Part shown: piece after piece, positions 5,201-63,333 of the stretch
How positions within the stretch are numbered: position 1 is the first letter of the stretch
How the letters are laid out: the number at the start of each line of letters is the position of its first letter
NCBI GenBank assembly: GCA_903813345.2
Contig: CAIIXF020000012.1
Span: 36,564,528 to 36,628,527 of the forward strand
DNA from: Owenia fusiformis
Taxonomy: Eukaryota > Annelida > Polychaeta > Sabellida > Oweniidae
DNA length: 64,000 bases
Reading direction: 5' to 3'
The notes under the pieces: generated by a model
Database searches by the model: none
What the model was told of the DNA's origin: nothing
Seen by the model: only the letters and a program-made list of their open reading frames with translations
Made by a program: the position numbers and the translations under genes

Positions 5201-8200
5201 GAATTATACGTGCGTTAAGGAAAAGAAATTGATTCGCTGCATCACACAAATACATGTATAAATATCAAATGTGAATGTCAATACAAAGAACAAGTGAAAC
5301 TATTTAGCGAATATAAATTGTATAGATTATTACATTTGATAAAATAAAAAAACATTCGATAGATTGGGTAAAGGTTTGGTAAATTGTTTGTTTTATTTGG
5401 TATTTATGGAATATTAATGTACCGAAAAAAGAAGCAGTTTAAACACCATAGCAATTGGAGTAATTGAAGAATGTGTGTACAGTGTACACCGACATGGTGC
5501 GACCTGGACGAACTGCGAACGAGATTAACGTGTTGAACACTGTTTAGGAACTAAGTAGCTATATATTTTAGACATATCTCATACGCGTTTCCCAGTTTGA
5601 TTTTCAATCACACTGACCATTGGTGCACGTTAAAATCCAGCGCACAATCAGATGATTTGTTTGTTTTACTCTAAGATCTCATTGGTCAGATTCCTTTTAA
5701 ACCATAGTTGATGGCATAGCTGCTCATCTTCTATTTACCTTATACATAAAAATTAGCATAATGTAGTCTGGATAAGATAATATCTCATTCATCAGAGTCA
5801 TCAATCTATGGGTTTTGGGCAGAAATTTCAGCCTGATATTCCAAGGTATGAAAACATCATACCTTGGAAATCCAAGATGGACATATCTCCCGACCACTGT
5901 TAATTTTAGCCCGTTTTACGACTTTTCGTAGGACGGTTGAGAAGTACTTTGGTGTGATAAGGGGGGGGGGGGGGCTACTAGGTTTATTGGATGGCATGTC
6001 TAAGGTACACTCAAGGCAGCTTATGCATTGCTAAGAGTGTTAGGTATTGCTACTTCGAGGTAATGGTCAACTAATGTAAATCACCACATGGGCGTTAACC
6101 CCTATTATCTTTATAATGAGGAGTAAATTGATACCATAAGGGAAACTTAGGTCCCGGTTAATCATGCGATTCAAAACCGATGCCATCCATGTATTGCAGC
6201 TTGTAATCGTATAAACTAATCCTTTTTATGAAACACTTTACGATCAAAGATATTGTTGATCAAAGGACTGAACAATCATATCAGGGAAGTGATTGAACAC
6301 TTATGTCAGGGTAACCAACAAATATCTTTATGTCAATGGCATATGCTTGGTCACACAGGCGACACTGTTGACTGAACAACATAATAGTATATAATGACTA
6401 ATACTGTATTTTTGTGTGCCCGCGATGCTAGTGAATTGCGTAATATTTAAATGTGGATTCTCCCCAGGTATCACCAAAAGAACAATATGCCCGTAGTGCT
6501 CATTATATGCTCATGTGTTTTCAACCAAAAAGCTCATTCGAGCGCACTAGCATTCACATAATTATTTTGAAAAACATCATGGTTTATTGCAATCGATCTC
6601 CTGTGGTGCACCAGCAACAAGCCGCCGCGGTTGACACACGTGAGCAGTCGACAAGGTTACCACAGCGTAATTAGCGTAATTAGTAATTAGTTTAAGTGCG
6701 CTTGGATGAACTGCTTTTTGACTTGGTCACATTTGCTCCGATCCATCGGCCGGCGCCCGGCCGATTGAGTGTTTTGTTTAATATTGTATTCAATTTTGAA
6801 CAAAATGCTCAATCGGCCGGGCGCCGTAGTGAAAATCGGACTAAATGTGACCAAGGCATAAGTTGAAAATGTGCGAGCATGTGATTTGCAACGCATGTGT
6901 TCATTGTTATTTTCCTGATACCAAGGGGGAATATTTATACAATGCACTAGCCTGAGGGCAGTTTTTAAAGAAAACTTGTACGTGAACGTGAAATTTATGA
7001 CCAATGAGATATTACTGTTTCCCTCTCAATTAATATTTCAAGGAACCTGATTGCAACTATTGCCGGTGAACACTATTAAGAACCAATTCCTAAATGATGA
7101 CCACACTTCTTCACTTTCAAGTTCAAGTTCATTTAAAAAACGAGTAGACTCTTTGCAAAGAAAAATATAGTGCTGATACAAAATAATAAAGGGTGCGTTT
7201 TCAAACTAAACAGAGTGCTCCTTATCTGATAGATAGAATGCACAAATAAAACAAAAGTTTTGCTATTATAGGTAAAAAGTTCTCTTAAAATTTCGAAGTG
7301 ATTTTTTCTGTTTATTCTGTCATCGGTCCGCCATTTTTGTGGAAGTTACACTGAAACGCAAACTCCAAGAAACGAAACGAAATCACTAGAAAAAACTACG
7401 CCACACATCGTGCGCATGCGCAACATGAATTATTTGCTTCTGGGCACTTACCATAAAAGATAACCACAATGAACAAACCTGGCGGAGGTTACCCTAACTT
7501 CATTTTAGCGAAATTTCAGCTCAAACTCGTGACAAATGCATTATGCATACGCTGGTATGAAGCCTTGGAGACACTCATTTTGGTAAATACGATTTATGGT
7601 GTATACTTTTCTGCAGTTTGGGGGAGTTTTAGACATTAAATGTAGAATTCAAGAAAATATGCGACTTATACGACTTATCAATTAATTTGTATCAGCACTG
7701 TAGTGTGAAAACTATATGTTGTACTTAAAATAAATATGTCTGTATCATTTCAGTTTGTGCTAATTTGGTTATTGTACTTGACATATCCTGTTCGATCTCG
7801 AAGGGAATGAGAACGCGGATACGAGACACGGCTAAAATGGTCGCTGAAGCCATACTCGCAGACCCCAGAAACGATATCAACATCGGTCTAATCGCATACA
7901 GCAAAGATGTCCATCATATAATATATCTAAGTAAGTTGTTTAGTTTTTTTTATATTGGATTTGAGCATTTATTCTTTTTATTACCGTGAACTTGAATAAT
8001 GTTAATTGAAACTCGAGTATTAAAATTTGGTTTGTATTCTTTTTTAAAACTCGAGAGTCGGTATGTTTCTAAATACTTCAATATTTTGTACGACCTCTTG
8101 TTCGCATAATTTTAGACTAATTAAAACGTACGGTCAATTTTAAATATCATTGTCATAATAATTTTAGACAACACGTTCAGCCAAAATGAGCTAGTAGATG

Positions 8201-10786
8201 CAATAGAAAACTCTCCAATAACCGGCACTGCATGCCGTACACAAACAAATGAGGCACTTGACGATGCTAACAACTTTTTCTTCAAAACGCGTGATCCCAA
8301 CGACCCCAAGGCTCAGATTCTTTACTTATTCACTGACGGCTTCACTTATAAAAGAGTGTTGATTCCTGATACTGTCGCAAAAGCTAAAGTGCTCAAAGAT
8401 GCTGGGGTGATCCTTAACGTTATACAAGTTCCCCATAAGTAAGTACTCAAAGACGCTGGGGTGATCCTTAACGTTATACAAGTTCCCCATAAGGAAGTAT
8501 TAAACTCATATTAGAGAGTGAAGTATGACTTGTGTATATGCGTATATCGTATCAGCGAAATGAAAAGTTATTTTCCCAAAGATACGAACTTATACGTCAT
8601 ACTATGTCCCGATCTCATGTCATTTAAAAAATACCAGCTTAAAATGGTACATCTATTTTTCGGGAGACTCTTGAACAATGCTTTTAACATGATAATTACC
8701 TTGTTATATATCAAAATACAGGTATTTTTACTTTTATTTTTCCTTTTTACGTAAGGGACGCTTAAAGAACTCTATTGAATTTGAAAGTGCGCATTTTTAC
8801 CATGTAAAACGTTGCATTTAGTGATTTTAAAATATGGTAATTTGATCATAACTTTTTTTATTCCTTATCCAATTTACCTCAAATTTGGTATGGGGCAACA
8901 TTTGCCAAAGGTTATTTATGAAGATGGTTATGGTTATGGTTCGTCATCAAGAAATAGCAAAAATGTGTAAAACTCAAAAAGACAAACAAAAAGGGTGTCG
9001 AATTTTGGCTTGCAACCGAAGATACCTCAAGAAAAGCCAGAGACTGCCGAAGATTTTCTGTGCAAACGAAGTTGGCCGAGGGTACCACGCATGTGAAGAG
9101 GACGTCTCTAATTGGTCAAAAAGAAAGGCTCGGCATTCTCCAAATTCGGTTGTATGGCTTATCTGCGGCTGCATGGCCCAACCTCGATTGAATGAAAAAG
9201 ATGCTGTCCCCAAACAAGAACAGTACCTAAAAAATCAAAACTATGCACAAAAAAGTCATTTAGACTTATTGGTGCCAGTGTGCATTGAAGAGATTGAATA
9301 TTGTACATCTTTGGAATATTGAACGGTCGACTGACGAGCGTGCATTGTGGAGATTGAATATTGTACATCTTTGGAATATTGAACGGTCGACTGACCAGTG
9401 TGCATTGTGGAGATTGGATATTGTACATCTTTGGAATATTGAACGGTCGACTGACCAGTGTGCATTGTGGAGATTGGATACTGTACATCTTTGGAATATT
9501 GAACGGTCGACTGACCAGTGTGCATTGTGGAGATTGGATACTGTACATCTTTGGAATATTGAACGGTCGACTGACCAGTGTGCATTGTATTGGAAGAGAT
9601 TGAATATTGCACATCTTTGGAACATTAAACGGTCGATTGACCAGTGTGCATTGTATTGAAAGAAAATGACTTCTCATATATGTTGAATAAAGACAGTCTA
9701 CTGACCAGTGTGAATGACAATGGAAGAAATTAATACTGTGTATCATGGCACATAGATAGGTATTTAGAGTAAAACGAATTCCAGGTGTATGTTTTATTGA
9801 TGAAGATAATCCGATGTTTCTTAATGCAATATGATCTATATTTCAATAAATGTCTAACAGGATTACAACAGAAGCATTTATGTAAATCCATGGCAGGGGT
9901 TTATGTTGTATTTAAGAATATCTTGCAATGCATTTACATATTAACCGCATTTATCTCTGTGGTTATGTTGTCATTGTTTTATTAATGTTAACAATTGTCA
10001 TTAAAACATCTAAGAAATCTTTGAGTAGAAATTAAACGAATTTAATCGCAGCAAAGTAATTTACCTCAAAAAGAAAACTGTTTCCGAAGTATCTCACAAA
10101 AAAGGATACGCTGTTTAGTAATCTCAAATCAATTAGGACTTTAATTTTGTTCTTTTTTATGAGATATTTAACCTATAAGTATGAGTTTTCTCTAATTTGT
10201 ATTTTATTATTAATTACAAATTATTTAAAGTTTTTAGAAAAAAGTAAATCCTCTGTAACCAAGAAAATACAAGGATTGAACAATTCATACAATTTACATC
10301 TAAATGTTATTTGAAAGAAAAAAGTAATAACAATTACAAAGAACTATCCAGAGAGCTCTAAATGATTTAATGAATTATCAACAATCTACATTTTTGTTTA
10401 AGTCTGTTACGATCATGCAAACCTTAATGATGTCATTAATAGATTTTAATGCCGTGTAATCATAGGATAGGGGTCGGAGGGGGGGGGGGGTCATAATGAA
10501 ACACCATGTATATACTTAGGTGTTGAACGAGAAAGTAAGCCACGAAGTATAATATATATATTGGTCACCATTGTCATGATTGTGATGAATTGTCTAACGT
10601 TTTTATCATTTTAGACGAGGAAAAACCGACACAGACGAGTTCCAAACCCTACCAAGTCCTGACCGCCATTTTAAAATCGATTCTGACATGGTCGCCGTTG
10701 ACCTGTACGAGAAGATGTCACTAGATGCGCCTTGTGAACCGTTCTATGGAGAGGTGTGTATATTTAATTGGCGGCCATCGAAGTGA
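2087..10786 (+). CDS. Gene A: secreted single-vWA-domain protein (5 exons)
   Basis: Predicted 318-aa secreted protein from exons 2087-2270, 2878-3030, 7754-7930, 8168-8438 and 10615-10786; the junctions are GT-AG and the frame stays open. Residues about 5-32 form a signal peptide (hydrophobic core WFCIAIVAYLAL), followed by a charged Lys/Glu helix, a TTTTKKPPK linker, and one vWA domain from about 113 to the Cys near the C-terminus. The metal site is complete: D122-x-S124-C-S126, the Thr in CRTQT (196/198) and D228 in FTDG. Extracellular vWA domains bind ligands through such a metal ion; the ligand here is unknown. It is the first of four tandem paralogues on this strand and the only complete one that lacks a second vWA. 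It also lacks an intron present in B and C inside the domain. TATA box and AATAAA frame the model. The last exon could instead splice at 10753. Confidence 0.75.
2878..3030 (+). CDS. Gene A exon 2: Thr-Pro/Lys linker
   Basis: Acceptor AACGCAG precedes 2878. The exon encodes a low-complexity linker with TTTTKKPPK, KKEKKQKDRKD and an acidic-aromatic end (DEESFPDLL, PDFTFGDD). It is 51 codons, phase 1 on both sides, and corresponds in place to the Thr/Pro linker exons of genes B, C and D. Donor GTATTT is weak. Confidence 0.65.
3185..3312. repeat. Dispersed repeat R1, left part (copy in gene A)
   Basis: Matches 55910-56025 downstream of gene D exon 1: shared blocks include TGTAATCAGATCGTGTGACA, ATGACCTACT and the ending TACTTCGACCCTACT. 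It continues at 5465 after an intervening 2.1-kb element, so the copy is split by insertion. Confidence 0.6.
3326..5458. mobile_element. About 2.1-kb non-autonomous element with TACCGAAT subterminal repeats
   Basis: The element splits repeat R1. Its ends are imperfectly inverted: GCAATTTATGG..GCTTC at the left against GAAGC..CCATAGCAATTGG at the right, with TATATTCGCTAAAT near 3390 facing ATTTAGCGAATATA near 5302. Both flanks carry many TACCGAAT or ATTCGGTA words in opposite orientation. CACGTGACT also occurs on both sides (3703 and 5089). No transposase is encoded; the centre (3800-5030) holds only short chance frames. Confidence 0.5.
5465..5975. repeat. Dispersed repeat R1, right part (copy in gene A)
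   Basis: Matches 56565-56745: GTACACCGACATGGTGCGA, GAACTGCGAACGAGAT, TCTCCCGACCACTG, and the end ACGGTTGAGAAGTA..TTTGGTGT.ATA followed by a G-run. The G-run here is about 14 bases. Confidence 0.6.
6385..6575. repeat. Dispersed repeat R2, copy 1
   Basis: Similar to 53930-54120: shared order of TGCCCGC, TTGCGTAATA, AGGTATCAC.AAAAGAACAATA, AAGCGCAC or GAGCGCACTA, and ATTCACATAATT. Family unknown. It sits in gene A intron 2; the other copy lies upstream of gene D. Confidence 0.5.
6722..6855. mobile_element. Foldback MITE, 134 bp
   Basis: Left arm CTTGGTCACATTTG.TCCGAT and right arm ATCGGACTAAATGTGACCAA are inverted copies; the inner CGGCCGG.GCGCC blocks also pair (CCCGGCCGATTGAG against CTCAATCGGCCGGGCGCC). 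The hairpin is GC-rich in AT-rich surroundings. No target duplication is clear. Confidence 0.6.
7168..7700. mobile_element. Mariner-type MITE with TA duplication
   Basis: Ends are AGTGCTGATACAAA at the left and TTTGTATCAGCACT at the right, flanked by TA on both sides. The 533-bp body has no reading frame of note. It lies only about 50 bp upstream of gene A exon 3. Confidence 0.6.
7754..7930 (+). CDS. Gene A exon 3: vWA N-terminal half
   Basis: After CATTTCAG the frame reads VCANLVIVLDISCSI, the first vWA strand with the DxSxS metal motif, then helix 1 and the strand INIGLIAYS. Exon is 59 codons, phase 1 in and out, donor GTAAGT. It aligns with exon 3 of genes B, C and D. Confidence 0.85.
8168..8438 (+). 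CDS. Gene A exon 4: vWA central and C-terminal half
   Basis: Acceptor TAATTTTAG. The frame NNTFSQNELVDAI..TACRTQTNEAL..ILYLFTDGF..VILNVIQVPHK supplies the metal-site Thr and Asp and the later strands. At 271 nt it equals exons 4 plus 5 of gene B without the intron between them. It ends in phase 2 before GTAAGT at 8439. Confidence 0.85.
8441..8494 (+). repeat. 54-bp tandem copy of the gene A exon 4 end
   Basis: The last 52 nt of exon 4 plus the start of its donor (8387-8440) are repeated directly downstream with few changes. In the second copy the donor GTAAG has become GGAAG. The unit is 54 bp, a whole number of codons. Confidence 0.8.
9281..9660. repeat. 60-bp minisatellite, about 6 units (gene A intron 4)
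   Basis: Units of 60 bp with the core ACATCTTTGGAATATTGAAC and GGTCGACTGACCAGTGTGCA. Because 60 is a multiple of three, repetitive frames are open on both strands; none is supported as a gene. Preceding 8500-9280 shows no recognisable feature. Confidence 0.85.
10615..10786 (+). CDS. Gene A exon 5: last vWA helix and stop
   Basis: After ATCATTTTAG the phase-2 frame gives KRGKTDTDEFQTLPSP..VAVDLYEKMS..APCEPFYGE and runs to TGA at 10784-10786. The Cys in APCEP corresponds to the Cys closing vWA1 in gene B (RYNC). AATAAA follows 60 nt later. A donor-like GTGTGT at 10753 offers an alternative exit. Confidence 0.65.
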
Positions 10787-10845
10787 AATATGTATCCACT
10801 CTAAAATGTTTATTTTAAAAGCATATTTAATGTTTGAATATTGTG

Positions 10846-10851
10846 AATAAA
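10846..10851 (+). terminator. Polyadenylation signal of gene A
   Basis: AATAAA 60 nt after the proposed stop codon at 10784-10786, in a suitable place for a short 3' UTR. Confidence 0.5.
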
Positions 10852-11680
10852 AAACGTATAATGCAAACTGAGAAAGTGTTTGCATGCATTTCATAAAACA
10901 TCCGGGATTTTTATTTTTCAGTATTAGCATAGACAGAGGCTTGCTGTTGAGAACCCTGGATGATAGTAATGTTGACAACATAATGTGGACAACAACCTAG
11001 GCTTAACATATGAGCTTTTGTAACATCATTTGAATTTGTTGAATGCATCTCCATGACATTATGTCGTGCTTCTTATGAACTAATGATTAACAAATATTGA
11101 AACAATAAAGATCAAAATCAATGACATTTGTATGGTATAATTATCTCTTATACTTGCTTATACATGTACAATGTGTGTACTATTAAAATATGAATAATGT
11201 CACGATAGTAAATAACAGTTATCTTGATCAAGTTGTGTTACACTCGCTTGCGTAAGTTTGGAAACCAGACGTTTTCATTTGGTAGCATATCAAAGCCTGT
11301 CAATCTTAAAAGTGTTTTTCTTAATTAGAGTTGTTCGGAAAGTTATAAAAAATGTAATGCTTTTTTAATCGGCCAACATCTAAAGGGCTGTACCAAATTA
11401 AGTGTTATCGTTGCAAATATAATATGCGGCATTACACGCAGGTCAATTTGCAAGAGATACGGTATTACGCAAATTTAAATTCCTTGTGTTGTACCTTACC
11501 GTTACCCTGCGTTATACATTCTTGGTTTTTGTAGCTATTAGAACTATGAAATTAACTAGGAAATTATCTGTCTAGGATGTTATCATAAACATTTATATAT
11601 AAAACATAAAGATATCTGGAACCTATACAAGATCTTTCTGAAACGATGAAAACATTTACCTCGCACTTTCAACTGTCACG
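10852..11680. other. Intergenic, nothing recognised
   Basis: AT-rich sequence between the gene A polyadenylation signal and the 34-bp satellite. I see no exon, RNA gene or repeat. Confidence 0.4.
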
Positions 11681-12360
11681 CTTAATTGGTACACACCCTA
11701 TGAACAGAAACATGCTTAATTGGTACACACCCTATGAACAGAAACAGGCTTAATTGGTACACACCCTATGAACAGAAACAGGCTTAATTGGTACACACCC
11801 TATGAACAGAAACATGCTTAATTGGTACACACCCTATGAACAGAAACAGGCTTAATTGGTACACACCCTATGAACAGAAACATGCTTAATTGGTACACAC
11901 CCTATGAACAGAAACATGCTTAATTGGTACACACCCTATGAACAGAAACAGGCTTAATTGGTACACACCCTATGAACAGAAACAGGCTTAATTGGTACAC
12001 ACCCTATGAACAGAAACAGGCTTAATTGGTACACACCCTATGAACAGAAACATGCTTAATTGGTACACACCCTATGAACAGAAACAGGCTTAATTGGTAC
12101 ACACCCTATGAACAGAAACATGCTTAATTGGTACACACCCTATGAACAGAAACATGCTTAATTGGTACACACCCTATGAACAGAAACATGCTTAATTGGT
12201 ACACACCCTATGAACAGAAACATGCTTAATTGGTACACACCCTATGAACAGAAACATGCTTAATTGGTACACACCCTATGAACAGAAACAGGCTTAATTG
12301 GTACACACCCTATGAACAGAAACATGCTTAATTGGTACACACCCTATGAACAGAAACAGA
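11681..12360. repeat. 34-bp tandem repeat, 20 units
   Basis: Twenty head-to-tail copies of a 34-bp unit (CTTAATTGGTACACACCCTA then TGAACAGAAACATG), nearly identical except a T/G alternation at one position (ACATG or ACAGG). The order of the two variants is irregular. No spacers separate units, so this is a satellite and not a CRISPR array. Confidence 0.95.
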
Positions 12361-12489
12361 CGTTGATAAGTGAGCAAAAGGGAGCTTTCGATTACTAAAC
12401 CTATGGAAGGGAGTGCATATCGTTTCTCATTCCTAATTCTATAACCGTAAACAACTATTTTAAGATTTAAACACGTCAGTCCATCATTA

Positions 12490-13713: not shown

Positions 13714-13715
13714 TA

Positions 13716-28700: not shown

Positions 28701-31700
28701 TCCTAAACTTTTATCCTTTACTATTTCAAAGATATTGTCCAAATTTACAACGTTTAAATCATACGGGGGGGGGATTTCATTGAGCTCGTACGAAGCCCCC
28801 GATTTGCCTTGAACAACCCCAATCGTTATACAACGAATCCCTGGCTGGGAACAAGCCCCTGCTCTGAAATATCAGCAAACCACAGGGCGGAAAGGTGACT
28901 ATTTTTGCTCGAACAATCACACGTTTAAGCCAGCTATTTGATGGTGCGCGTACTAAACTCTCTTATTAAACTGACTTTTCATTTCGGTAGCACGAACCCC
29001 CCATCCCCTCCGTTTCGCCCTGACCCCCCTTCATTATAAAACGGACCCCCAGGCAAGTGGGAAACATTTTAACCCCCGTGGAATATCCTGGCTAAGTCCC
29101 TGTAGAAGCACCAGAGAGATGAAATAAGAGACACGAAGGATGAGCCATTGTCGTTATTTCATCATTATAATTATCTTTGAGCATGTAGTCAGAATAACTT
29201 CACCCGCGACTATCAGAATAACAGATTTCTAGTAAATTGAGCAAATGACAACACAAAGCATAAGAAACATAAAGCATGAGGTTATTAATTAACGATGCAC
29301 TTTAAATACCATAAACAGTAGATTTTTATCATATTAATAAATATCGAAAGATACCAATAAATATCAAGCAAAATGTCGCAGTTAATAAAGTGAATAAATA
29401 AACCCATGAAAGATGTAATAATCTTGTTATTTATAGGTCTGTATGGAATATCGCTGACAACAACAAAACCACCGACAACATCAATGCAATCCGATCTCCC
29501 TTTTCTCCCAGGAGGCAGACGAGATGACCAACCTTCTCCAGGTAAATGCAATGCACAATAACTATAATACCAGGTTCCAAATACAATCCAATCACCTTAT
29601 TCTAGTCATTATTGTTGCAAGCAACACCAAGTACACGAATGACAGGCACTTCATACCCATATACCAGGAAAGTAGTTCGTGTGTTTATGTGGTATAATAG
29701 TATTTTTCTTGGGTCTAATTAGGTTTAAATGTACTGCCATTCGAACATTTTACTCGTGTGGTTTTATGTTTGATTATAAAACTTGAAGTGTTTTACAAAT
29801 GATTGACATCAGATAACGATTCCATTTAAATTTCATTTAATCAACAACATTACGGGTAAATTACAATAAGCAAAGAATCCGTCCAACTATTTCCAGCTTG
29901 CTTGGATTTGATGATCGTGATAGACGTGTCGTGTTCTATTAAAGAAGAAGATAGGATTAAAGCCCGCGACTTTGCGGCTGATGTTGTGAAAGGAATACTT
30001 ACAACGGCGACTGTGGATACAAGGGTAGGTCTGGTGCGATATAGCCAGACGATCGAGTTAGTTTTTAGGCTTGGTAAGTTAATAAAAGATTCATATTCTC
30101 ATTTTATATTCTAGATGAGTAGACATCAAATATCATAGATAAATAACTATTATATTTAGTTTGAAATAAATGAAGTTTATTTCAATGAAGCTATAATGAT
30201 GATTCGAACATGATTGTATTCACGCCTTCTATAAACTGTGAACAAAGTCAATGCTTTAGCTGGGTTATATTCGAGATCAATGCCCCAGCTCTAGCTGTAC
30301 TAGTATTTCGTTCAGTGCACTCAATGGTCATTTCAGGCTGTTCCGTTATTTTCGCAAAATTTAATTTTTATATGGATATCCGCTGTGATGCTTTTGTTTC
30401 TGGGCAATATAGTTGGTTCCTAACTTAACATGGAACAATAAATCAACTTATTAATATTAATATTGTACATGATCTTCATCAACATATTTATAACAAAGAG
30501 TATATACACTCGGTATTTATGCATTCTGATACTCATCACATCTTTCTGTCTTCAACCAGAAATATGTACTAATGTGAAGCTGATAGAAGGCCGTGATTTC
30601 TCGTGATTGTATTTTGGACCTCAGTTCAGCTTTTGATGTCGTCCTTTATAACGTATTGCTAACTAAATAAAAAGGCTATGGTCGCAACAGGGATTTTATC
30701 AATCTCATACCTGCGTACATACTCATTCATTCATTTTGAATGTAATGCTAATTTTGACACCATACATACAATGGCGCATCAGATACAGAATTGCAATCTC
30801 TTGAACGTCTACACGAAAGAGCTCATATCCAGTCACTCGTTACACTAACACTGTTACAATTCCTTAATCACAGACACTATAAGATTCCTCCTCAAGGAGA
30901 GCTATGGGTGATAAATCAACAGTTTTCAAAGAAATGGCTCTTTGGAAAACCTTTTACCAGATCTCAGAGTTTGTCAATCGATTTCAAGTTTCAAAAGAAT
31001 AGAAGGAAATAATGGAAGCCCTGCCTCTATCTAATTAACTTCAAAACTAAAAACGCCTTGCCTTGATCCTTAGAAATTCCATTTGACCAACGGTCTGGAC
31101 TTCTTTGGCAAGCTCATATTTATCATCAAATGTTTGAACTAGTAGCCGATCCAAAATGTAATTGTGATAATTCAAACCTTCAATGATGAGAGAAAACATG
31201 CTGGGAACTGCGCAATTATTTAGTTGTGTGCATTTGTACTGGAATAGATATTCAATGATGATAGAAAATATGCTGGGAACTGCACAATTATTTATAAAAA
31301 ACATGTTTGTTTTACCGAAGATGACCACGGCGAGACGGATGTGATTGACAACGCGATTCGTACAATGAATACAAGTGACCTAGGCTGTAAGACAAATACC
31401 CATTTAGTCCTTAAAGAACTCTATAGCAAATACTTCACAGACAAGTTTGGCGACAGGTAAAATAGTGAATGTACCATACAAAGATTACTTTCCTATTTTC
31501 TATATTATTTTCACAGAACAATATCACATTACTTACGTAGCACGTCATTTTTTGTATATAATATACAGTGGCGTATTTTGTGAGTGTACGCCTCGAGTGA
31601 GCGAAGCGAACGAGATTTGAGCAGATTTGAGGATTTCTTTGAGGATGAGATTGCATTTGGAGCGTTTCTGGAATCGTTTTGAAGCGTTTATTAATTTTAG

Positions 31701-38900: not shown

Positions 38901-41900
38901 GGGTCTAGTGCGTTACAGTCAGACACTCGAGCAAGTATTTAGACTAGGTAAATTAAAAAAATCCAATCAGATTCTATATACTATATTTTATATTTTCCTT
39001 TTGTCTTAACCATACGCTTATTTTACTTTATTAGTGAATGACAGGATTCAGTTGTAAATGTGAGGATATGGTTCGTGTATTCCTTATTTATTAGATAGAA
39101 AATGACCTCTGCTAATATGTTTCGTGTATTCTGTCATCATTGAATACCAAGCGATTTTGATTGTGAATGTGAGGTCATATTTCGTGTCACCGTCATCACT
39201 TAACAGAAAGTGAACGCTGTAGTGATTGTAATGACATGTTTCTTGCATTCTATCATCATTGAATAGAAAATAAACTCTGTAGAGAATATGAATACAGGTT
39301 TCTTGTATTCTGTCATTATTGGATAGCAAGTGAACTCTGGAATGAATGTGAGGACAGGTTTCGTGTATTCTGGCATTATTGAATATCAAGTGAACTCTGG
39401 AGTGAATGTAAGGATAGGTTTCGTGTATTCTGTCATTATTGAATAGCAAGTGAACTCTGGAGTGAATGTGAGGACAGGTTTCGTGTATTCTGTCATTATT
39501 GAATATCAAGTGAACTCTGGAGTGAATGTGAGGACAGGTTTCGTGTATTCTGGCATTATTGAATATCATGTGAACTCTGGAGTGAATGTAAGGATAGGTT
39601 TCGTGTATTCTGTCATTATTGAATAGCAAGTGAACTCTGGAGTGAATGTGAGGACAGGTTTCGTGTATTCTGTCATTATTGAATAGCAAGTGAACTCTGG
39701 AGTGAATGTGAGGACAGGTTTCTTCTATTCTGTCATTATTGAATAGCAAGTGAACTCTTGAGTGAATGTGAGGAAAGGTTTCGTGTATTCTGTCATTATT
39801 GAATAGCAAGTGAACTCTGGAGTGAACGTGAGGACAGGTTTCGTGTATTCTGTCATTATTGAATAGCAAGTGAACTCTGGAGTGAATGTAAGGATAGGTT
39901 TCGTGTATTCTGTCATTATTGAATATCAAGTGAACTCTGGAGTGAATGTGAGGACAGCTTTCGTATATTCTGGCATTATTGAATAGCAAGTGAACTCTGG
40001 AGTGAATGTGAGGATAGGTTTCGTGTATTCTGTCATTATTGAATAGCAAGTGAACTCTGGAGTGAATGTAAGGATAGGTTTCGTGTATTCTGTCATTATT
40101 GAATAGCAAGTGAACTCTTGAGTGAATGTGAGGAAAGGTTTCGTGTATTCTGTCATTATTGAATATCAAGTGAACTCTGGAGTGAATGTAAGGATAGGTT
40201 TCGTGTATTCTGTAATTATTGAATAGCAAGTGAACTCTGGAGTGAATGTGAGGATAGGTTTCGTGTATTCTGTCATTATTGAATATCAAATGGACTCTAG
40301 AGTGAATGTGAGGACAGGTTTCGTGTATTCTGGCATTATTGAACATCAAGTGAACTCTGGAGTGAATGTGAGGACAGGTTTCGTGTATTCTGGCATTATT
40401 GAATAGCAAGTGAACTCTGGAGTGAATGTGAAGACAGCTTTCGTATATTCTGGCATTATTGAATAGCAAGTGCACTCTGGAGTGAATGTGAGGCCAGGTT
40501 TCGTGTATTCTGTCATTATTGAATAGCAAGTGAACTCTGGAGTGAACGTGAGGACAGGTTTCGTGTATTCTGTCATTATTGAATAGCAAGTGAACTCTGG
40601 AGTGAATGTAAGGACAGGTTTCGTGTATTCTGTCATTATTGAATATCAAGTGAACTCTGGAGTGAATGTGAGCACAGGTTTCTTGTATTCTGTCATTATG
40701 GAATAGCAAGTGAACTCTGGAGTGAATGTGAGGACAGGTTTCGTGCATTCTGGCATTATTGAATAGCAAGTGAACTCTGGAGTGAATGTGAGGCCAGGTT
40801 TCGTGTATTCTGTCATTATTGAATATCAAATGGACTCTAGAGTGAATGTGAGGACAGGTTTCGTGTATTCTGGCATTATTGAACATCAAGTGAACTCTGG
40901 AGTGAACGTGAGGACAGGTTTCTTGTATCCTGTCATTATTGAATATCAAATGGACTCTAGAGTGAATGTGAGGACAGGTTTCGTATATTCTGGCATTATA
41001 GAATATCAAGTGAACTCTGGAGTGAACGTGAGGACAGGTTTCGTGTATTCTGTCATTATTGAATAGCAAGTGAACTCTGGAGTGAATGTGAGGACAGGTT
41101 TCTTCTATTCTGTCATTATTGAATAGCAAGTGAACTCTTGAGTGAATGTGAGGAAAGGTTTCGTGTATTCTGTCATTATTGAATAGCAAGTGAACTCTGG
41201 AGTGAACGTGAGGACAGGTTTCGTGTATTCTGTCATTATTGAATAGCAAGTGAACTCTGGAGTGAATGTAAGGATAGGTTTCGTGTATTCTGTCATTATT
41301 GAATATCAAGTGAACTCTGGAGTGAATGTGAGGACAGCTTTCGTATATTCTGGCATTATTGAATAGCAAGTGAACTCTGGAGTGAATGTGAGGATAGGTT
41401 TCGTGTATTCTGTCATTATTGAATAGCAAGTGAACTCTGGAGTGAATGTAAGGATAGGTTTCGTGTATTCTGTCATTATTGAATAGCAAGTGAACTCTTG
41501 AGTGAATGTGAGGAAAGGTTTCGTGTATTCTGTCATTATTGAATATCAAGTGAACTCTGGAGTGAATGTAAGGATAGGTTTCGTGTATTCTGTCATTATT
41601 GAATAGCAAGTGAACTCTGGAGTGAATGTGAGGATGGGTTTCGTGTATTCTGTCATTATTGAATATCAAATGGACTCTAGAGTGAATGTGAGGACAGGTT
41701 TCGTGTATTCTGGCATTATTGAACATCAAGTGAACTCTGGAGTGAATGTGAGGACAGGTTTCGTGTATTCTGGCATTATTGAATAGCAAGTGAACTCTGG
41801 AGTGAATGTGAAGACAGCTTTCGTATATTCTGGCATTATTGAATAGCAAGTGCACTCTGGAGTGAATGTGAGGCCAGGTTTCGTGTATTCTGTCATTATT

Positions 41901-44900
41901 GAATAGCAAGTGAACTCTGGAGTGAACGTGAGGACAGGTTTCGTGTATTCTGTCATTATTGAATAGCAAGTGAACTCTGGAGTGAATGTAAGGACAGGTT
42001 TAGTGTATTCTGTCATTATTGAATATCAAGTGAACTCTGGAGTGAATGTGAGGACAGGTTTCTTGTATTCTGTCATTATGGAATAGCAAGTGAACTCTGG
42101 AGTGAATGTGAGGACAGGTTTCGTGCATTCTGGCATTATTGAATAGCAAGTGAACTCTGGAGTGAATGTGAGGCCAGGTTTCGTGTATTCTGTCATTATT
42201 GAATATCAAATGGACTCTAGAGTGAATGTGAGGACAGGTTTCGTGTATTCTGGCATTATTGAACATCAAGTGAACTCTGGAGTGAACGTGAGGACAGGTT
42301 TCTTGTATCCTGTCATTATTGAATATCAAATGGACTCTAGAGTGAATGTGAGGACAGGTTTCGTATATTCTGGCATTATAGAATATCAAGTGAACTCTGG
42401 AGTGAACGTGAGGACAGGTTTCTTGTATTCTGTCATTATTGAATATCAAGTGAACTCTGGAGTGAACGTGAGGACAGGTTTCGTGTATTCTGGCATTATT
42501 GAATAGCAAGTGAACTCTGGAGTGAATGTGAGGACAGATTTCGTGTATTCTGTCATTATTGGATAGCAATTGAACTCCGGAATGAATGTGAGGAAAGGTT
42601 TCTTGTATTCTGTCATTATTGAATATCAAGTGAACTCTGGAGTGAACCTGAGGACAGGTTTCTTGTATTCTGTCATTATTGAATAGGAAGTGAACTCTGG
42701 AGTGAATGTGAGGACAGGTTTCGTGTATTCTGTCATTATTGAATAGCAAGTGGACTCTGGAGTGAATGTGAGGACAGGTTTCGTGTATTCTGTCATTATT
42801 GAATAGCAAGTGAACTCTGGAGTGAATGTGAAGACAGGTTTCTTGTATTCTGTCATTACTGAATAGCAAGTGGACTCTGGAGTGAATGTGAGGACAGGTT
42901 TCGTGGATTCTGTCATTATTGAATAGCAAGTGAACTCCGGAATGAATGTGAGGACAGGTTTCTTGTATTCTGTCATTATTGAATAGGAAGTGAACTCTTG
43001 AGTGAATGTGAGGACAGGTTTCGTGTATTCTGTCATTATTGAATAGCAAGTGAACTCCGGAATGAATGTGAGGACAGGTTTCTTGTATTCTGTCATTATT
43101 GAATAGCAATTGGACTCTGGAGTGAATGTGAGGACAGGTTTCGTGTATTCTGTCATTATTGAATAGGAAGTGAACTCTAGAGTGAACATGAGGACAGGTT
43201 TCGTATATTCTGGCATTTAGATAGCAAGTGAACTCCGGACAACATACCACCTAGACAACTCATCCCCAAGACAACTCATCCCCTAGATATGTCATCTCAT
43301 AGTAGACAACTCATCCCCTGGATAATTCATCCCATAGACAACTTATCCCCTGGACAAATGATCCCCTAGACAATATATCTCCAGGACAACTCATCCCTGG
43401 ACAACTCATCCCCAAGACAACCCATTCCCTGGACACATCATCCCCTAGACAACTCATCCCCTGAACAATTCATCCTTTATCACACAAAGCCAAATTGTAA
43501 AGTGTTTTTTGAAATGAAATATTAAATACACCTTGGATCATTCTAAATATTATTGTTTACTGTATTGACACAAATTAAACCGTCAAACAGTCGTACGGTA
43601 CCATTAAAACTTTAATCTCTTGCCCTTATATAACATGACTTAATTTTTCATGACAAAAAATAAAGTTTTCTCTCTGCATAATTTTGAAACATGAACTTCA
43701 GTAACTTCAGCTGTGAATACTGTGAAATCTTGACATCAAAAGAGCTTCTTCAATCAATGTTTATATAATATTGAAATTGTATATTAAAAGTAAAATAAAG
43801 GTTAATATTACATATTAATTGGTCAATTATTTCCTTGCCAATATCATAGTTTTTAAACAATTTTCCAGATCTCCCCTCTAGAAAGTCTTTGTTCACTTGT
43901 ACTCCACTCGATTATGCTTTTACCAGACCAGATGGCTTCGGTAACGAAATGTACTTGAAGGTAGCATTTTTCTCTTTTCCTTATTTCACACGTTATAGGC
44001 AGAATTGCTACTACATTTTCTCACAAACATTTGTCAGCATCACATGTTTAAGAAAATAAACATGTTTGCTAACAAATAGTACAGAAGACAACAGAATCAT
44101 CGCTTAAATAACTCACTATTGTAATGTAAATGGAGAGTTAGAGGTGCAGATCTTAACCGTTTTTGAAGTTCCATTTACGTAACAAAAGTGAGGTGTTAAA
44201 TCAATGGTCGTGTTGTCCTCTGTTTGCAAACATATACATATGTTTAGACATATGATTGTGACACATGTTTGTGATAAAGAATGCTGTTTGAATTCTGCCT
44301 ACAACTGGTGAAATAATCGCACCTTCGAGGCTTTGACATTTTGTTACTGAAACGATCCATTTACAAAGTAATTGAGTGGAGTACCAGTGTTCATATGTTT
44401 TTGAAACTTAAACTAATCATGATGACCAAAACATTTATATATCATTTGAATAATATATGAATTGGTAATATAACATTAAATTACTCAATTATGCCAAAGG
44501 ATAGGTCGTTCAGGGGATGAGTTGTCTAGGGGATAAGTTGTCTAGGTGATGAGTTGTCCATGGGATGAGTTGTCTTGGAGATGAGTTGTGCAGGGGATAA
44601 GACACAGGGGATAAGTTGTCCAGGGATGAGTCGTCTAGGGGATGAGTTTCAAGTTTAGGCAAAAAATGTCTTAACTTGTTCAAACCATTCATTGAAGATG
44701 ATCATGGCGAATCTGACGTTATCGAACATGCAGTTCGTACAATGAATACAAGTGATCTTGGCTGTAAAACACACACACATACGGTCCTCAAAGAACTCTA
44801 CACGACATACTTCACAAAGAATCTAGGTGACAGGTAAAATAAAAAAGCTTATACAATGAGTTTTAAGAGGTGCAAGGTACAAGATATTTGGGGAACGGCG

Positions 44901-47195
44901 TATCCTATCGTTCACGGAGCTTTTATTTAAACTCCGTTCACGAGTATACTTGTTTTTGGGCTATTATCCCAAAGATTAATGATTATATAAGGTTGCATAA
45001 TCATGATTTTGCGCTGTCATTTCGTAACATTATCTCATGATTACGTAATCGTTTCTTTGGTATACAATTACGCAGCTCTGATCGATAGATAGCCGTCTCC
45101 CCATGCCAAAAGGTTAAATTGTAATATGTTATATTTTATGTAATAAAATCTATAAAAACGTAGACATGTTCTTTGGATATAAATTGTGATTTAACAAGTA
45201 ATTTGTTAAATCTGGTTTATATCACAGAGAACGGTGTCTGTCCTACCAGCCCAATTAAACGTCTATTGACAGATCCAATTAGGCCGAGACAATAACTTAT
45301 CTTAATGCTATACCACCTGTCCTGTAGTAGTTTGGTTTACACAGTTTCAGCTTCGCATCTTGAGGAAGTCGGACGCTTACCCGCCATGCTAGGCTTAAAC
45401 AATAATCGATGAACCAAAAATTCTTCTGTAGCGGTTTTAAATTGAATATACTGTTACTTTAAAGTTAGTTGCAAGTGAAGATTTATCTAAGACACAATAA
45501 CAGATTGAAATATCAAAAATCTCTACCGAAATTAATGCCGCCACAAATATGAGAAAATATTGAAAAATTCATGTCCATGACATACTTATAATGAACATTA
45601 CTCATTGAGCCTTCCTATATTTATTGCTAGGTCCAACGAAGCATACCCAAACGCGGCCATATTGTTTACAGACGGTCGTACAATTTCGCAGAGGTTTGCT
45701 CCTGAAACAAAGAGACAGGCAAGGAATGCTGAAGTGTCTGACATAGAGATACATGTAGTGGATGTGCCTCATCGGTAAGTATCACTATGCAAAATACACG
45801 AATTGATATAGCAGATGATATACATGTATGTATGACAGGAAAACAATGCTGACATGTCTGACATAGAGATACATGTAGTGGATGTGCCTCATCGGTGAGT
45901 ATCATCCTTTGAAAAATGACTAAATACAATGCAGGAAAATAAACACTGCATACTCGCTTACTATTATAGTCTAGTGCTTTCTTCCGAAAGACGAAAAACG
46001 ATCCTGAAAATTGAACATTTAAAGATCTGATAGAGACCTTGACAATCAAAGATGCAACAATACATGGGGTATCCCTTTAAATAAAACTTATAATTTGTAA
46101 TGATAATGATATTATTTTTGTGGATTTTGGGTGTTAGCTTGTCTTCGCAGAAGCAAAAACGCTGAACAGCAGGAAGATGAAGTCCTGTAATGTATTGTGA
46201 CACGAATCAGTATTTTTGTCTTCAGGCAAGGTTTGGGTGATTTGGCTGATGAGTTCGACGAGTTGCCAACAAGACCACAACTTTTGTATAATCTCACAGA
46301 ACCTGAACACATCGATAGCATTGTACAGGACATAAAGAGGAGATACAATTGTGACAGACCAGACTTTGGCTCGCAAAGAGATGAACAGTCGTCAGGTAGA
46401 TTTCTCGTTATGTCTTTTTTGTTGAGGTTAATGCACCAGCTTTATTATGTTCTCTTTCTAATAAGAACTTATTTAGATAGGTTAATACCATAGACATGTT
46501 ACGATAGAAGCAATGTTTATACCCATTCCAATCTTCTGTATCTTTTTCAGTACCAGGTGAATATGAATCGAAATAAAAGCTCTTGATTTTGTTGTCTTGT
46601 ATTTGAAACAGGTTGTGCAAACGTTGTCTTTTGTATTGATATAAGCTGCTCTATTGATCGTACAAACGTAACCAGGGCTATCAAAATAGCAAAGGATATC
46701 ATAGACGCATCAGAATTTCGTCACAATTATGGAGCATTTACATATGATAACAACACCGTGGGCTCTGTACCATATTTCACTGATACGAGTGCAGAATTGA
46801 ACAACCTTAATTCCGAAACGAAAGCTTGCAAGACAAGAACAAACCGAGCAATAACCTATGCCAGGAAGAATTTCTTCAATAATAATTCTTCTTCAAACGT
46901 GCTTATTATATTCGGCGATGGCAATGAATCCCCTTGGCGTGAAAACAAGTTTGCGATAGAAAACGCCAAAGACTTTACCAGTAATAACAAAGGGACGCTT
47001 ATATGGGTCATTCTCACTAGCAACCGAGATAATACAACTAGAATACGTGGAATAGAGGAGCAGATTAAAGTTGTAGCTTCAGTAAATAATATAGGAACGA
47101 AATTAATCCTTGAACATAACGATCCGGATGTTGCAACAGTAATCGCTGATTATTTGGACAGACATTTTCCAAGATGCTCGGAGTCATCTGAATAA
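35790..47195 (+). CDS. Gene C: secreted double-vWA-domain protein (7 coding exons)
   Basis: Predicted 487-aa protein from exons 35790-35952, 37893-37976, 38765-38947, 44698-44833, 45631-45774, 46226-46395 and 46612-47195, with an open frame across all junctions. Signal peptide MALVKLAWAYVIIKVCTA, short TTSPKPEDKP linker, vWA1 from about 83 with D92-x-S94-C-S96, C166-K-T and FTDG, then vWA2 with CIDISCSI, KACKTRT and IIFGDG. It is the nearest paralogue of gene B. Exons 1, 4, 5, 6 and 7 have identical lengths in the two genes; exons 2 and 3 differ by whole codons. Exon 5 is almost identical at DNA level while exon 4 is only about three quarters identical. Intron 3 is swollen by a 4-kb minisatellite and a nested MITE. 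Donor of exon 1 (GTTAGT) is weak but its position matches gene B. Confidence 0.85.
36297..37590. mobile_element. Possible DNA element with about 60-bp inverted ends
   Basis: Left end ATACCCACGGTGTCCAACCC..CTTACATGCA..GCGTTTCATT faces right end AATGATACGCC..TGCATGTAAG..GTTTGGGTTGGACACCGTGAT. The 1.3-kb interior has no transposase. It sits in gene C intron 1. Confidence 0.5.
37893..37976 (+). CDS. Gene C exon 2: linker
   Basis: After TTGATTTGTAG the phase-1 frame gives TLKGTSRITTSPKPEDKPID..MFDPSVG. Twenty-eight codons, phase 1 both sides, donor GTAAAT. Confidence 0.65.
38765..38947 (+). CDS. Gene C exon 3: vWA1 metal motif
   Basis: After TTATTTTCAG the frame reads ACLDLMIVIDVSCSIKQEDR..IRVGLVRYSQTLEQVFRLG. 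Sixty-one codons, two more than gene B, phase 1 both sides. Confidence 0.9.
39110..43231. repeat. 60-bp minisatellite, about 68 units (gene C intron 3)
   Basis: Units of 60 bp around TTTCGTGTATTCTGTCATTA, TTGAATAGCAAGTGAACTCT and GGAGTGAATGTGAGGACAGG. The left end is degenerate. Lines 39661-41040 and 41041-42420 are near-identical, a 23-unit (1380-bp) higher-order duplication. The period keeps minus-strand frames of 961 and 416 codons open; these are rejected as genes. Confidence 0.95.
43240..43475. repeat. Degenerate repeat of GACAACTCATCCCC, plus orientation arm
   Basis: About fifteen copies of a 14-20-bp word GACAACTCATCCCCTA with changes. The reverse complement of the same repeat occurs at 44505-44650, so the two arms face each other across about 1 kb. 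Confidence 0.75.
43894..44389. mobile_element. Diverged second copy of the long-TIR foldback MITE
   Basis: Ends CACTTGTACTCCACTCGATT and AATTGAGTGGAGTACCAGTG are inverted. Internal blocks (CTTATTTCACACGTT.TAGGC, ATGTTTAAGAAAAT, GACAACAGAATC) match 22379-22912. It is more decayed than that copy and lies between the two arms of the GACAACTCATCCCC repeat. Confidence 0.7.
44505..44650. repeat. GGGGATGAGTTGTC repeat, inverted arm
   Basis: Reverse-complement copies of the word at 43240-43475 (AGGGGATGAGTTGTCTAG and variants). It ends about 50 bp before gene C exon 4. Confidence 0.75.
44698..44833 (+). CDS. Gene C exon 4: vWA1 Thr motif
   Basis: Acceptor CATTCATTGAAG. Encodes DDHGESDVIEHAVRTMN..LGCKTHTHTVLKELYTTYF..GDR. 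136 nt, same as gene B but about 30 bases differ. Donor GTAAAA. Confidence 0.8.
44834..45630. other. Gene C intron 4
   Basis: No repeat or exon recognised. It does not resemble gene B intron 4, which fits the sharp start of similarity at exon 5. Confidence 0.4.
45631..45774 (+). CDS. Gene C exon 5: vWA1 Asp motif
   Basis: After TTATTGCTAG the frame RSNEAYPNAAILFTDGR..IHVVDVPHR is the same as in gene B except one residue (R for K near KRQAR). 144 nt, phase 2 both sides, donor GTAAGT. Confidence 0.9.
45839..45894 (+). pseudogene. Partial tandem copy of gene C exon 5
   Basis: The last 56 nt of exon 5 are repeated 120 bp downstream, again with an AG before and GTGAGT after. The frame does not fit either neighbouring exon. 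Gene B carries two such copies, this gene one. Confidence 0.75.
46226..46395 (+). CDS. Gene C exon 6: last vWA1 helix and linker
   Basis: After TTGTCTTCAG the frame gives RQGLGDLADEFDELPTRPQL..EHIDSIVQDIKRRYNC, then RPDFGSQRDEQSSG. 170 nt, phase 2 to 1, donor GTAGAT. Confidence 0.85.
46612..47195 (+). CDS. Gene C exon 7: complete second vWA domain
   Basis: After TTTGAAACAG one exon encodes GCANVVFCIDISCSI, YGAFTYDNNTVGSVPYF, KACKTRTNRAITYA, NVLIIFGDGNE, GTLIWVILTSNRD and ends FPRCSESSE with TAA. Same 584-nt length as gene B exon 7. An extra Cys (FCID) is present in strand 1. Confidence 0.9.
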
Positions 47196-55033: not shown

Positions 55034-55055
55034 TCCGTCAGCTTGAAGCATTTGT

Positions 55056-55088: not shown

Positions 55089-55249
55089 GTAAGGATTTGA
55101 AAACATTTTTGATAAAAGAAAGTAAACGGAATTTTCTTACATGGCAAAACTTCTAATTACAGATTTTATTCCATGAAACATTGAAAAAATGAACACAATT
55201 AAATAGTTGGTATTTCTTTTTTAGACACATCGAGTATCGGATTTGAAAC

Positions 55250-55385
55250 ATGCGATTGTTACTTGCATTTTGTGCCATATTGGTAAAGCATACGAATGAC
55301 TGTGGTGCATTTGACATACGAGCTCCTATCAACAAGGGAAACATAAATAAAGCTGGAATAAATCCGAAAAGCGGTTTATCAGGAT
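55250..55385 (+). CDS. Gene D exon 1: signal peptide
   Basis: Acceptor TCTTTTTTAG ends at 55224. Encodes MRLLLAFCAILVKHTNDCG then FDIRAPINKGNINKAGINPK. Donor GTACGT at 55386, phase 1. Unspliced, the frame stops ten codons later. Confidence 0.7.
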
Positions 55386-61300: not shown

Positions 61301-63333
61301 TATTAACTGCACCAACACATCTGGTTACCTCTCATATTGGCATTCATGCTTTGATGTTATAGATATTAGTTGACATAGTTCATTTGTATTTATTTGTATC
61401 ATTACTGCTCATAAAGCAGACCTGCTATTCAAGCAGACCCAGTGAACTTGCAAAAGTGAACACTGGTATTTTTCTACCCGAAGTATTAACATTATCATAT
61501 AACTGCTCATAAAGCAGACCTGCTACTCAAGCAGACCCAAGGTCTTTACAGTACAAAACGGGGTATGACATTGTAAAGGTAATCTTAACTAATGGTATAC
61601 CAAACGGGAAATGACATTATAAAGGTAATCTTAACTAATGATGTACCAAACGGGGTATGACATTGTAAAGGTAATCTTAACTAATGATGTACCAAACAAG
61701 GTATGACATTGTAAAGGTAATCTTAACTAATGATGTACCAAACGGGGTATGACATTGTAAAGGTAATCTTAACAAATGATGTACCAAACAAGGTATGACA
61801 TTGTAAAGGTAATCTTAACTAATGATATACCAAACGGGGTATGACATTGTAAAGGTAATCTTAACGAATGATGTTCCAAACAGGGTATGACATTGTAAAG
61901 GTAATCTTAACTAATGATGTACCAAACGGGGTATTACATTGTAAAGGTAATCTTAACTAATGATGTACCAAACGGGGTATGACATTGTAAAGGTAATCTT
62001 AACTAATGATATACCAAACGGGGTATGACATTGTAAAGGTAATCTTAACGAATGATGTACCAAACGGGGTATGACATTGTAAAGGTAATCTTAACTAATG
62101 ATATAACAAACAGGGTTTGACATTGTAAAGGTAATCTTAACTAATGATGTACCAAACAAAGGTATGACATTGTAAAAGTAATCTAGAATAATGATGTACC
62201 AGACAGAAGTATGACATGTAAATGTAATCTAAATTAATGATGTACCAGACGGAGGTACGATATCGTAAAAGTAATCCAAACTTTATTTTTTCGTGTCTAA
62301 CGAAATTAATGAATTGTATAAATGATAGTTGTATATATATTGTCTCACATTGTCTACACCGGCTGTGATTTCACAAGAATATAATTAATTTGTTTATTCG
62401 TATTTTTTGTAACATCAGTGAGACATAAATAATTTTTTAACTTAACTGATCTATTCACCTCTGGGTATTCTGAATATCAAACTGTATGAGCTTCTTTATC
62501 TCGTTATAATATATTGATAGTTAAATTGACAAATTACCTTGAGTAAAGTACAATCTGACATATTATTAAAAAAATACTCCTGACCATAAATTAGGAAGTA
62601 GAGATACAACTATTGCTTGACTATTCAATACATAGCACATCGGTATTGATTTTCTGTAATTTTGATAAATGTTTTAATAATATTTATAACATAGAGCTTA
62701 ATGTTTGATTTAGTCAATTCTCAGAGAGGCATCTTTACATAGGTTTTAATTTCATCGTCTCTTGTCGACTCGCTTCTAGTTCCATTCATAATTTGTCTTT
62801 CTGGAATTATTCACAACAAGATAAATGTAAATAGCGTAAGTACGGAAGTGTATTAACATGTGCGTTGTATACTGATTTAATAAGTAATTTATTGTACTTA
62901 CAATGATAAGAAATACAGTAGTTGGTCGATCGATGTCAATAAAAAAATTTAGTTATGTTTCCATTTCAGGATATTGAGGCAAGGGGCAATTTCCATCTGA
63001 AAGGAGTGGAATTATATTCAATCATAATGTTGTTCAAACCACATAATTCAGACATGACCAAATTGCTCTTATAAAACTTAAAAAAAAACATTACGCATAT
63101 GTTGATCATTGTTTTATCTCCATAAATGTCACCCATCGGACAAATCTTAAATTTTGCAGCATGTGTCGATCTTATGTTAGTGTTTGACGTATCATGCTCG
63201 ATAACAAATGATGATAAAGCGAACGCCAAACAATTTGCCTCAAAACTGTTAGAGAACCTTCTGGGTCTGGCGGATAATATCAACCTTGGAATAGTAACCT
63301 ACAGCGAAAATAGAAACCTTGTTTCACCATTAG
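55250..63333 (+). CDS. Gene D: secreted vWA-domain protein, 5' part
   Basis: Fourth member of the cluster; exons 55250-55385, 58140-58214 and 63160-63333 are seen, all phase 1, giving 128 residues before the window ends. Signal peptide MRLLLAFCAILVKHTND, linker with TTLPPLPPGFAADD, then the start of vWA1: ACVDLMLVFDVSCSI (D80-x-S82-C-S84), INLGIVTYSENRNLVSPLG. The Thr and Asp metal-site exons should lie beyond 64000. It is more diverged from B and C than they are from each other. Intron 2 carries a 46-bp minisatellite with a probable solo LTR inside. Confidence 0.75.
55545..56750. repeat. Dispersed repeat R1, fullest copy (gene D intron 1)
   Basis: Begins CTCACTACGTTCTCAAAACG and shares more than 250 bp at high identity with 63640 to the window end (ACGAACGGACTGGACGTAC, CCGTTTGGGGTCTATT, TAGGGACGTTTTTA). 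It contains an internal partial duplication of about 245 bp and, at roughly 56070-56530, an inserted palindromic segment with GAAATCTCG/CGAGATTTC ends. Its right part matches 5465-5975. The repeat is rich in ACG and GAACG words. Confidence 0.65.
56751..58139. other. Gene D intron 1, remainder
   Basis: AT-rich intron without recognised element. CTTCCGCATTTTCTGACGC (56948) has a reverse-like echo near 57751 (GTGCGTCAGAAAATGCGC), suggesting an old inverted repeat. Confidence 0.3.
58140..58214 (+). CDS. Gene D exon 2: Pro/Thr linker
   Basis: After TTTGTGTTAAG the phase-1 frame gives YADGLETTLPPLPPGFAADD then PSANSG. Twenty-five codons, phase 1 both sides, donor GTATGG. Confidence 0.6.
58215..60562. 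other. Gene D intron 2, left part
   Basis: No recognised exon or element. Short minus-strand frames near 58681-59553 do not resemble any family I know. Confidence 0.3.
60563..62285. repeat. 46-bp minisatellite, about 17 units, split by an insertion
   Basis: Unit of 46 bp: AATGATGTACCAAACGGGGT, ATGACATTGTAAAGGTAATC, TTAACT. One unit and the start of the next lie at 60563-60622; the rest runs from 61551 to about 62285, with decay at the right end. The gap is the probable solo LTR at 60623-61550. Confidence 0.85.
60623..61550. mobile_element. Probable solo LTR, 928 bp
   Basis: Starts TGTGATGACC, ends GGTCTTTACA (TG..CA), and is flanked by GTAC on both sides (60619-60622 and 61551-61554). Removing it and one GTAC rebuilds a minisatellite unit (AATGATGTAC plus AAAACGGGG). 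Inside, TGCTCATAAAGCAGACCTGC and TCAAGCAGACCCA occur twice (61408 and 61503). No internal coding region remains. Strand cannot be decided. Confidence 0.65.
62286..63159. other. Gene D intron 2, right part
   Basis: AT-rich with no feature recognised up to the acceptor of exon 3. Confidence 0.4.
63160..63333 (+). CDS. Gene D exon 3: vWA metal motif
   Basis: After AAATTTTGCAG the frame reads ACVDLMLVFDVSCSITNDDK..LADNINLGIVTYSENRNLV..PLG. Fifty-eight codons, phase 1 both sides, donor GTAAGC. Aligns with exon 3 of A, B and C. Confidence 0.9.

Follow-up and report, generated by a model that had tools for sequence, protein, structure and literature searches.

What do two cysteines do on the metal-binding loops of a von Willebrand factor A (vWA) domain? 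The question is raised by a stretch of 64,000 nucleotides from the annelid Owenia fusiformis (assembly GCA_903813345.2, contig CAIIXF020000012.1, positions 36,564,528 to 36,628,527 of the forward strand; hereafter the window), which carries six vWA domains, A to F, with one cysteine in the middle of the metal ion-dependent adhesion site (MIDAS) motif D-x-S-x-S and another just before the MIDAS Thr. We consider it probable, at roughly 0.78, that in a large and apparently secreted family of such domains an intradomain disulfide joins the two metal-binding loops. The bond itself, as well as its effects on loop movement and on ligand binding, we infer from the distribution of the two cysteines in sequences of a single genome.

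Two cysteines on the MIDAS loops

The motifs were sought by a six-frame scan of the window, and further sequence was taken from the rest of the same 498 Mb genome. A sequence-only reading of the window had reported D-[IV]-S-C-S in all six vWA domains, and a cysteine beside the Thr loop in the five whose Thr exon is visible. The scan agrees on both counts: D-[IV]-S-C-S occurs in six of six domains, all on the forward strand, and a cysteine stands two residues before the MIDAS Thr (T-2) in five of the five domains with the Thr exon inside the window. The pair finding predicts a cysteine in the Thr exon of domain F as well, and the sequence fetched for that exon, 2.4 kb beyond the window end (locus L189, about 3313-3426), matched the prediction; it reads NLGCKTYTH (GCKTYT) and brings the pair to 6/6. 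The complete MIDAS (D-x-S-x-S, T and D) can be read directly in A to E, and in F using the exons outside the window. These cysteines come in addition to the usual pair that closes the domain, which is borne out in B to E as an N-terminal Cys plus HFPRC (C and E) or plus RYNC (B and D).

Domains C and E score 36.5 and 40.5 bits against the Pfam VWA profile (PF00092; cut-off 23.8). The AlphaFold2 model of domain C, made with nine window sequences, has a mean predicted local distance difference test score (pLDDT) of 59.9 and a predicted template modelling score (pTM) of 0.64. The solved folds nearest to this low-confidence model are those of CMG2 (Z 11.9, root-mean-square deviation 3.3 over 147 residues), a collagen VI A domain (Z 10.8) and the integrin CR3 I domain (Z 10.5); unrelated Rossmann folds also reach Z of about 10 in the same comparison. 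Domain C is thereby predicted, at low model confidence, to have a Rossmann-like vWA fold.

Co-occurrence of the two cysteines was studied in 178 loci of the genome, which gave 191 aligned rows; 17 of these were dropped (15 without a visible MIDAS, 2 without a visible Thr) and 174 were kept. The loci comprise all 38 matches to a domain E query, 80 picked among the listed best of 156 PF00092 matches (a tandem array on contig C1 being mostly skipped), 40 from the match lists of two queries in which both cysteines were masked, and 20 drawn from the lists for PF00092, PF13519 and the masked queries. Background loci were picked by their coordinates, before their sequences were seen; the split-exon window domains A, B, D and F stand outside the counts, and any Cys from T-4 to T-1 was accepted as the second one. 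The skipped array consists of near-identical vWA domains with a period of about 1.9 kb at about 37.84-37.86 Mb; the single copy read (L050, DASGS) is without the pair.

Both cysteines are present in 89 rows and neither in 85, while the first only and the second only occur in 0 rows each. Independent variation of the two, which the sequence-only reading had named as the pattern to look for against a bond, is thus absent from the 174 rows of this one genome. Broken down by source, the domain E loci gave 36 pair rows and 2 without the pair, the PF00092 loci 13 and 67, the masked-query loci 37 and 1 (2 not assessable), and the last group 3 and 15 (2 not assessable). Two pair-less rows (in L024/L097 and L027/L104) are second readings of places that were also fetched as other loci; without them the counts are 89 and 83. 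Fisher's test gives p = 7e-52 for the co-occurrence, a value that ignores relatedness and is not usable as a probability; after collapse at 40% identity 29 rows with both and 39 with neither are left, and no single-Cys row appears at any level. In the 85 rows without the MIDAS cysteine the middle residue is Gly in 38, Asn in 16, Ser in 12, Lys in 6 and another residue in 13, a tally that makes it fair to say, as had been said from the window alone, that this position usually holds Gly or another small residue.

Within the family the pair is maintained over considerable divergence. Of the first 30 matches to domain E, 25 diverged relatives were aligned; their mean column identity is 35%, every one of them has the MIDAS Cys, and 23 have the second Cys in its usual column, the remaining two carrying it two residues earlier. 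Divergence among these relatives reaches below 30% identity, and two of the 11 invariant or nearly invariant positions are these cysteines. Over the 89 pair rows the partner lies at T-2 in 86, at T-4 in 2 (L004, CTRKT; L005, CTQKT) and at T-3 in 1 (L084, NCGAT). L084 otherwise resembles an ordinary vWA domain: its 40 best other matches, where fetched, are without the pair. A search of prokaryotes with domain C returned 58 pattern matches, with no relative among them.

At several loci (L024/L097, L027/L104, L187, L038/L138 and L157/L115) a Cys-pair vWA domain is closely followed by a pair-less one, mostly reading DHSNS or DxSKS, an order that suggests proteins of two domains, only one of them stapled.

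Metal-ligand loss and the proposed staple

The first four ligand positions (D, S, S and T) are intact in 80 of the 89 pair rows. At least one of them is missing, with both cysteines kept, in the other 9 (L122, L136, L139, L141, L150, L151, L156, L157, L162), to be compared with 10 of the 85 pair-less rows; the third Asp is missing, again with both cysteines kept, in 6 of the 89 (L136, L139, L141, L150, L151, L157). As an example, L139 reads DTSCF and CLRRT with NG replacing DG, and L150 and L151 read DISCF and CFRRT with SG replacing DG; the exact Thr column in such rows depends on the profile alignment. Open frames, together with leader-like exons recognized by a hydrophobicity scan near L136 (in L188), L141 (in L186) and L151 (in L184), argue that some of these rows are genes. 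That the pair persists where the metal site seems to have been lost argues against metal binding as its sole reason and favours a structural staple.

The leader-like exons in L186 and L188 stand before vWA exons, and a Cys-pair vWA exon (L089) has immediately upstream of it a 497-residue Thr/Pro/Glu-rich, mucin-like repeat frame (L181, reverse strand, 181-1671). Because of the leader-like exons beside some relatives and of this mucin-like frame, the family appears to be secreted. The disulfide at the metal site that the sequence-only reading had proposed therefore gains indirect support from strict co-occurrence, from retention without ligands and from apparent secretion, with the bond itself still a matter of inference.

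We envisage that the Cys of D-x-S-C-S, in the loop after strand 1, bonds the Cys of C-x-T in the MIDAS Thr loop, and that the resulting disulfide covalently staples the top face of a secreted vWA domain. Such a staple would fix the distance between the metal-binding loops and stabilise the top face, and it should restrict the loop movement on which other vWA/I domains rely when they change affinity. Metal is probably still bound by most pair domains; in some the staple would have outlived the metal site.

Three other roles for the cysteines can be considered in the light of these data. According to the first, also raised by the sequence-only reading, the pair is a redox switch whose bond opens and closes in the animal, with binding at the metal site changing with bond state. 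The location of the pair at the metal site agrees with this, and there are partial precedents in the integrin beta A domain, where the C177-C184 bond near the metal loops is described as redox-regulated (PMC12383024), and in complement C2, where Cys-241 lies in a region studied by mutation, to judge from a title (Horiuchi 1991) cited in PMC9797810. Retention of the pair after ligand loss is left unexplained by a switch of metal affinity alone, and we regard this role as unlikely.

A thiolate site, in which the two cysteines bind a soft metal (zinc or copper) beside or in place of magnesium, seems to us more improbable still. Two cysteines near the five usual oxygen ligands could form a mixed site, and the large majority of pair rows do keep the first four ligand positions as counted above; both cysteines nevertheless stay where S, T and the third D have given way to other residues (L136, L139, L141, L150 and L151), and the proteins look secreted, a setting in which free thiols are uncommon.

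Equally hard to credit are intermolecular disulfides, with each Cys bonded to another chain so as to build a polymer or matrix. A large, apparently secreted family, one member of which has a mucin-like neighbouring frame, would suit such a use; however, two cysteines on two loops and never one alone fit a mutual bond better, as a single Cys suffices for a dimer.

History of the pair

The phylogeny of the rows was examined with trees. A 151-row tree computed after blanking the Cys columns requires six changes of state, one of them forced by strongly supported branches, and the 142-row tree, from which nine long or unsure rows were removed, requires three. Clade tests were made with 55 chosen rows of the 151, then with 47 and 54 of those; they rest on quick trees and on groups that were named with an earlier tree already in view, and a better tree escaped one of the free searches. 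In the 55-row set a single clade of all pair rows including L084, with the sisters present, is rejected by the approximately unbiased test (p-AU 0.00056), and a branch with support 100 sets apart the pair rows (without L084) together with their pair-less sisters. Not rejected are a single clade of the pair rows without L084 (p-AU 0.348) and, with the sisters excluded, a pair clade that takes in L084 (p-AU 0.563). When pair rows, sisters and L084 are held together p is 0.757 and the held tree is the more likely one, which is how it is known that the free search had missed a better tree.

Because the single clade including L084 is rejected, the state of the pair probably changed more than once. 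On these trees the second change is either a gain in L084 or a joint loss in the sisters, which read DxSNS or DxSYS; an independent gain in L084 is possible, and under either scenario the reconstruction has both cysteines changing together. Shared ancestry only, with an ancestor that had both cysteines and descendants that retained them without functional link, is the least probable account that we weighed: the pair rows mostly group, the two clades just named as not rejected agree with it, and the events available for an independent-pairs test are too few, yet the sequences have diverged to below 30% identity with both cysteines among the few (nearly) invariant positions, the rejected clade points to more than one joint change, and no row of the 174 has one Cys alone.

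Several results weigh against the disulfide. Every sequence comes from one genome, and 67 of the 85 pair-less rows derive from the best-scoring PF00092 matches. Only two independent pairs on well-supported branches are found in the 142-row tree (sign test, p = 0.5), and with so few events the association is non-significant in that test. A simple scan found no leader exon in the window. Finally, in a crude test that sampled metal-ligand geometries at random, only 0.3-0.4% of the clash-free poses brought a Cys at T-2 close enough to bond its partner, and 0.1-0.2% did so for a Cys at T-4, in the same assembly of loops around one ion. With so few poses in reach, adjacency of the cysteines does not follow from shared metal binding; a bond between them is possible, in that the modelled geometry allows it and does not imply it.

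Gene layout, known domains and implications

The exon pieces of A, B, D and F were located with a profile of 104 vWA sequences from the same genome, built from the 25 aligned relatives and 79 further loci (Table 1).

Table 1. Positions of the vWA exon parts in the window, with the motifs that they carry.
Feature	Position	Strand	Motifs and remarks
Domain A, first exon part	7756..7935	+	DISCS 7780-7794; N-terminal Cys codon at 7756
Domain A, second exon part	8167..8436	+	ACRTQT 8230-8247; third MIDAS Asp (LFTDG)
Domain B, exon 1	about 29896..30078	+	DVSCS 29923-29937
Domain B, exon 2	about 31311..31457	+	GCKTNT 31383-31400
Domain B, exon 3, as open frame	about 31883..32074	+	ILFTDG from 31958; end and splice-donor region inside 120-bp tandem repeat
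Domain B, exon 4 (approximate)	33067..33240	+	closing Cys RYNC 33181-33192; Gly/Asp linker toward C
Domain C, single exon with stop	33434..34012	+	DVSCS 33458-33472; ACKTRT 33644-33661; closing HFPRC 33983-33997
Domain D, exon 1	38764..38952	+	DVSCS 38791-38805
Domain D, exon 2	44688..44834	+	GCKTHT 44760-44777
Domain D, exon 3, as open frame	45581..45775	+	ILFTDG from 45659
Domain D, exon 4 (part)	46263..46352	+	closing RYNC 46341-46352
Domain E, single exon with stop	46614..47192	+	DISCS 46638-46652; ACKTRT 46824-46841; HFPRC 47163-47177
Domain F, exon 1	63159..63338	+	DVSCS 63186-63200

Domain B consists of four exons and appears to continue through the Gly/Asp linker into C, with a stop at the end of C, and the layout of D+E repeats that of B+C. 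Judged from these exons, the window seems to contain two vWA genes of two domains each (B+C and D+E) in addition to A and F; an AG acceptor at an identical codon phase precedes all six domain starts. In the paralogous genes A, B and D one exon end (VxDVPHR or VIQVPHK) is tandemly repeated together with the splice-donor region: at 8387-8499 in A with a unit of 54 bp, at 32013-32363 in B with a unit of 120 bp, and at 45740-45895 in D as two copies 120 bp apart. The repeats may provide several copies of the donor site or different ends for the exon. A 60-bp array separates exons 1 and 2 of domain D. Two large open frames of the minus strand were judged unlikely to be genes, as they fall within tandem arrays: 39084-43250 in the 60-bp array (68.7 copies, 39119-43239) and 25898-27559 in an array of 66 bp (24.7 copies, 25812-27438). 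Pfam matches of the first two large frames were judged spurious, and the third frame has none.

With the vWA/integrin I domain (PF00092) the pair domains share the profile match, the fold match of the low-confidence model and the D-x-S-x-S, T and D ligands; they differ in their two additional cysteines, one in the middle of the MIDAS motif and one ahead of the Thr. Complement C2 has a single Cys, Cys-241, within the MIDAS, at the second motif position (D-C-S-x-S), and is not known to have a partner Cys in the other loop. A thiol of this type is not matched by the window domains, which read D-[IV]-S-C-S. Two rows of the pair-less group, L052 (DCSGS) and L110 (DCSMN), have a Cys at the second MIDAS place and no partner before the Thr.

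The proximal thread matrix protein 1 of mussel (PDB 4cn8) is similar in having two vWA domains in a solved structure, and it is second-best for the family profile among the matches listed; it differs in its motifs, DDSSS and DASSS with NGGQT and IGQT, with Cys at neither place. The solved structures were searched in several ways: phmmer with domain E found three chains, none vWA by name; the family profile found 115 distinct sequences, with the pair absent in the five alignments examined (one of them incomplete); a 23-residue motif query found the mussel protein only, aligned at the MIDAS half and without Cys; and L084 as query gave 106 matches, of which three alignments were displayed. That solved structures lack the pair holds for the alignments displayed in these searches.

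The integrin beta bond C177-C184 is likewise a disulfide atop a vWA-type domain near the metal site, and according to PMC12383024 it lies near and not in the metal loops, the window pair having both cysteines inside those loops. PilY1 of Pseudomonas has a vWA domain with functional cysteines and a proposed role in force sensing (PMC8806160), and differs in being bacterial. A full-text literature search, covering titles and abstracts with subscription papers mostly outside it, found no description of the Cys pair. We regard the domains with the Cys pair as a variation on the known vWA domain; DxSCS domains may already be familiar to specialists who study animal proteomes.

Affinity control in integrin-type domains has at its core the movement of the metal loops, which shift relative to each other on opening. 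A loop rearrangement beside the MIDAS of complement C2b has been likened to that of integrin I domains (PMC12847986). A tentative and rather doubtful extension of the disulfide reading is that a large, lineage-expanded family of secreted vWA proteins replaced the metal-gated affinity switch, or backed it up, with a covalent clamp between the same two loops, and that in MIDAS-dead members the disulfide stands in structurally for the ion, so that their adhesion faces work independently of metal. The analysis marks in an invertebrate an extensive family of adhesion-type proteins, apparently secreted, for which the literature search found no description, and covariation of the two cysteines makes the claim checkable in any animal genome. 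If the claim is true, the loop-movement model could be tested on a disulfide that nature has already placed between these loops, bonded domains being expected to be locked and unbonded ones to switch, and the pair domains could serve as a natural model for vWA binders that are stable and locked.

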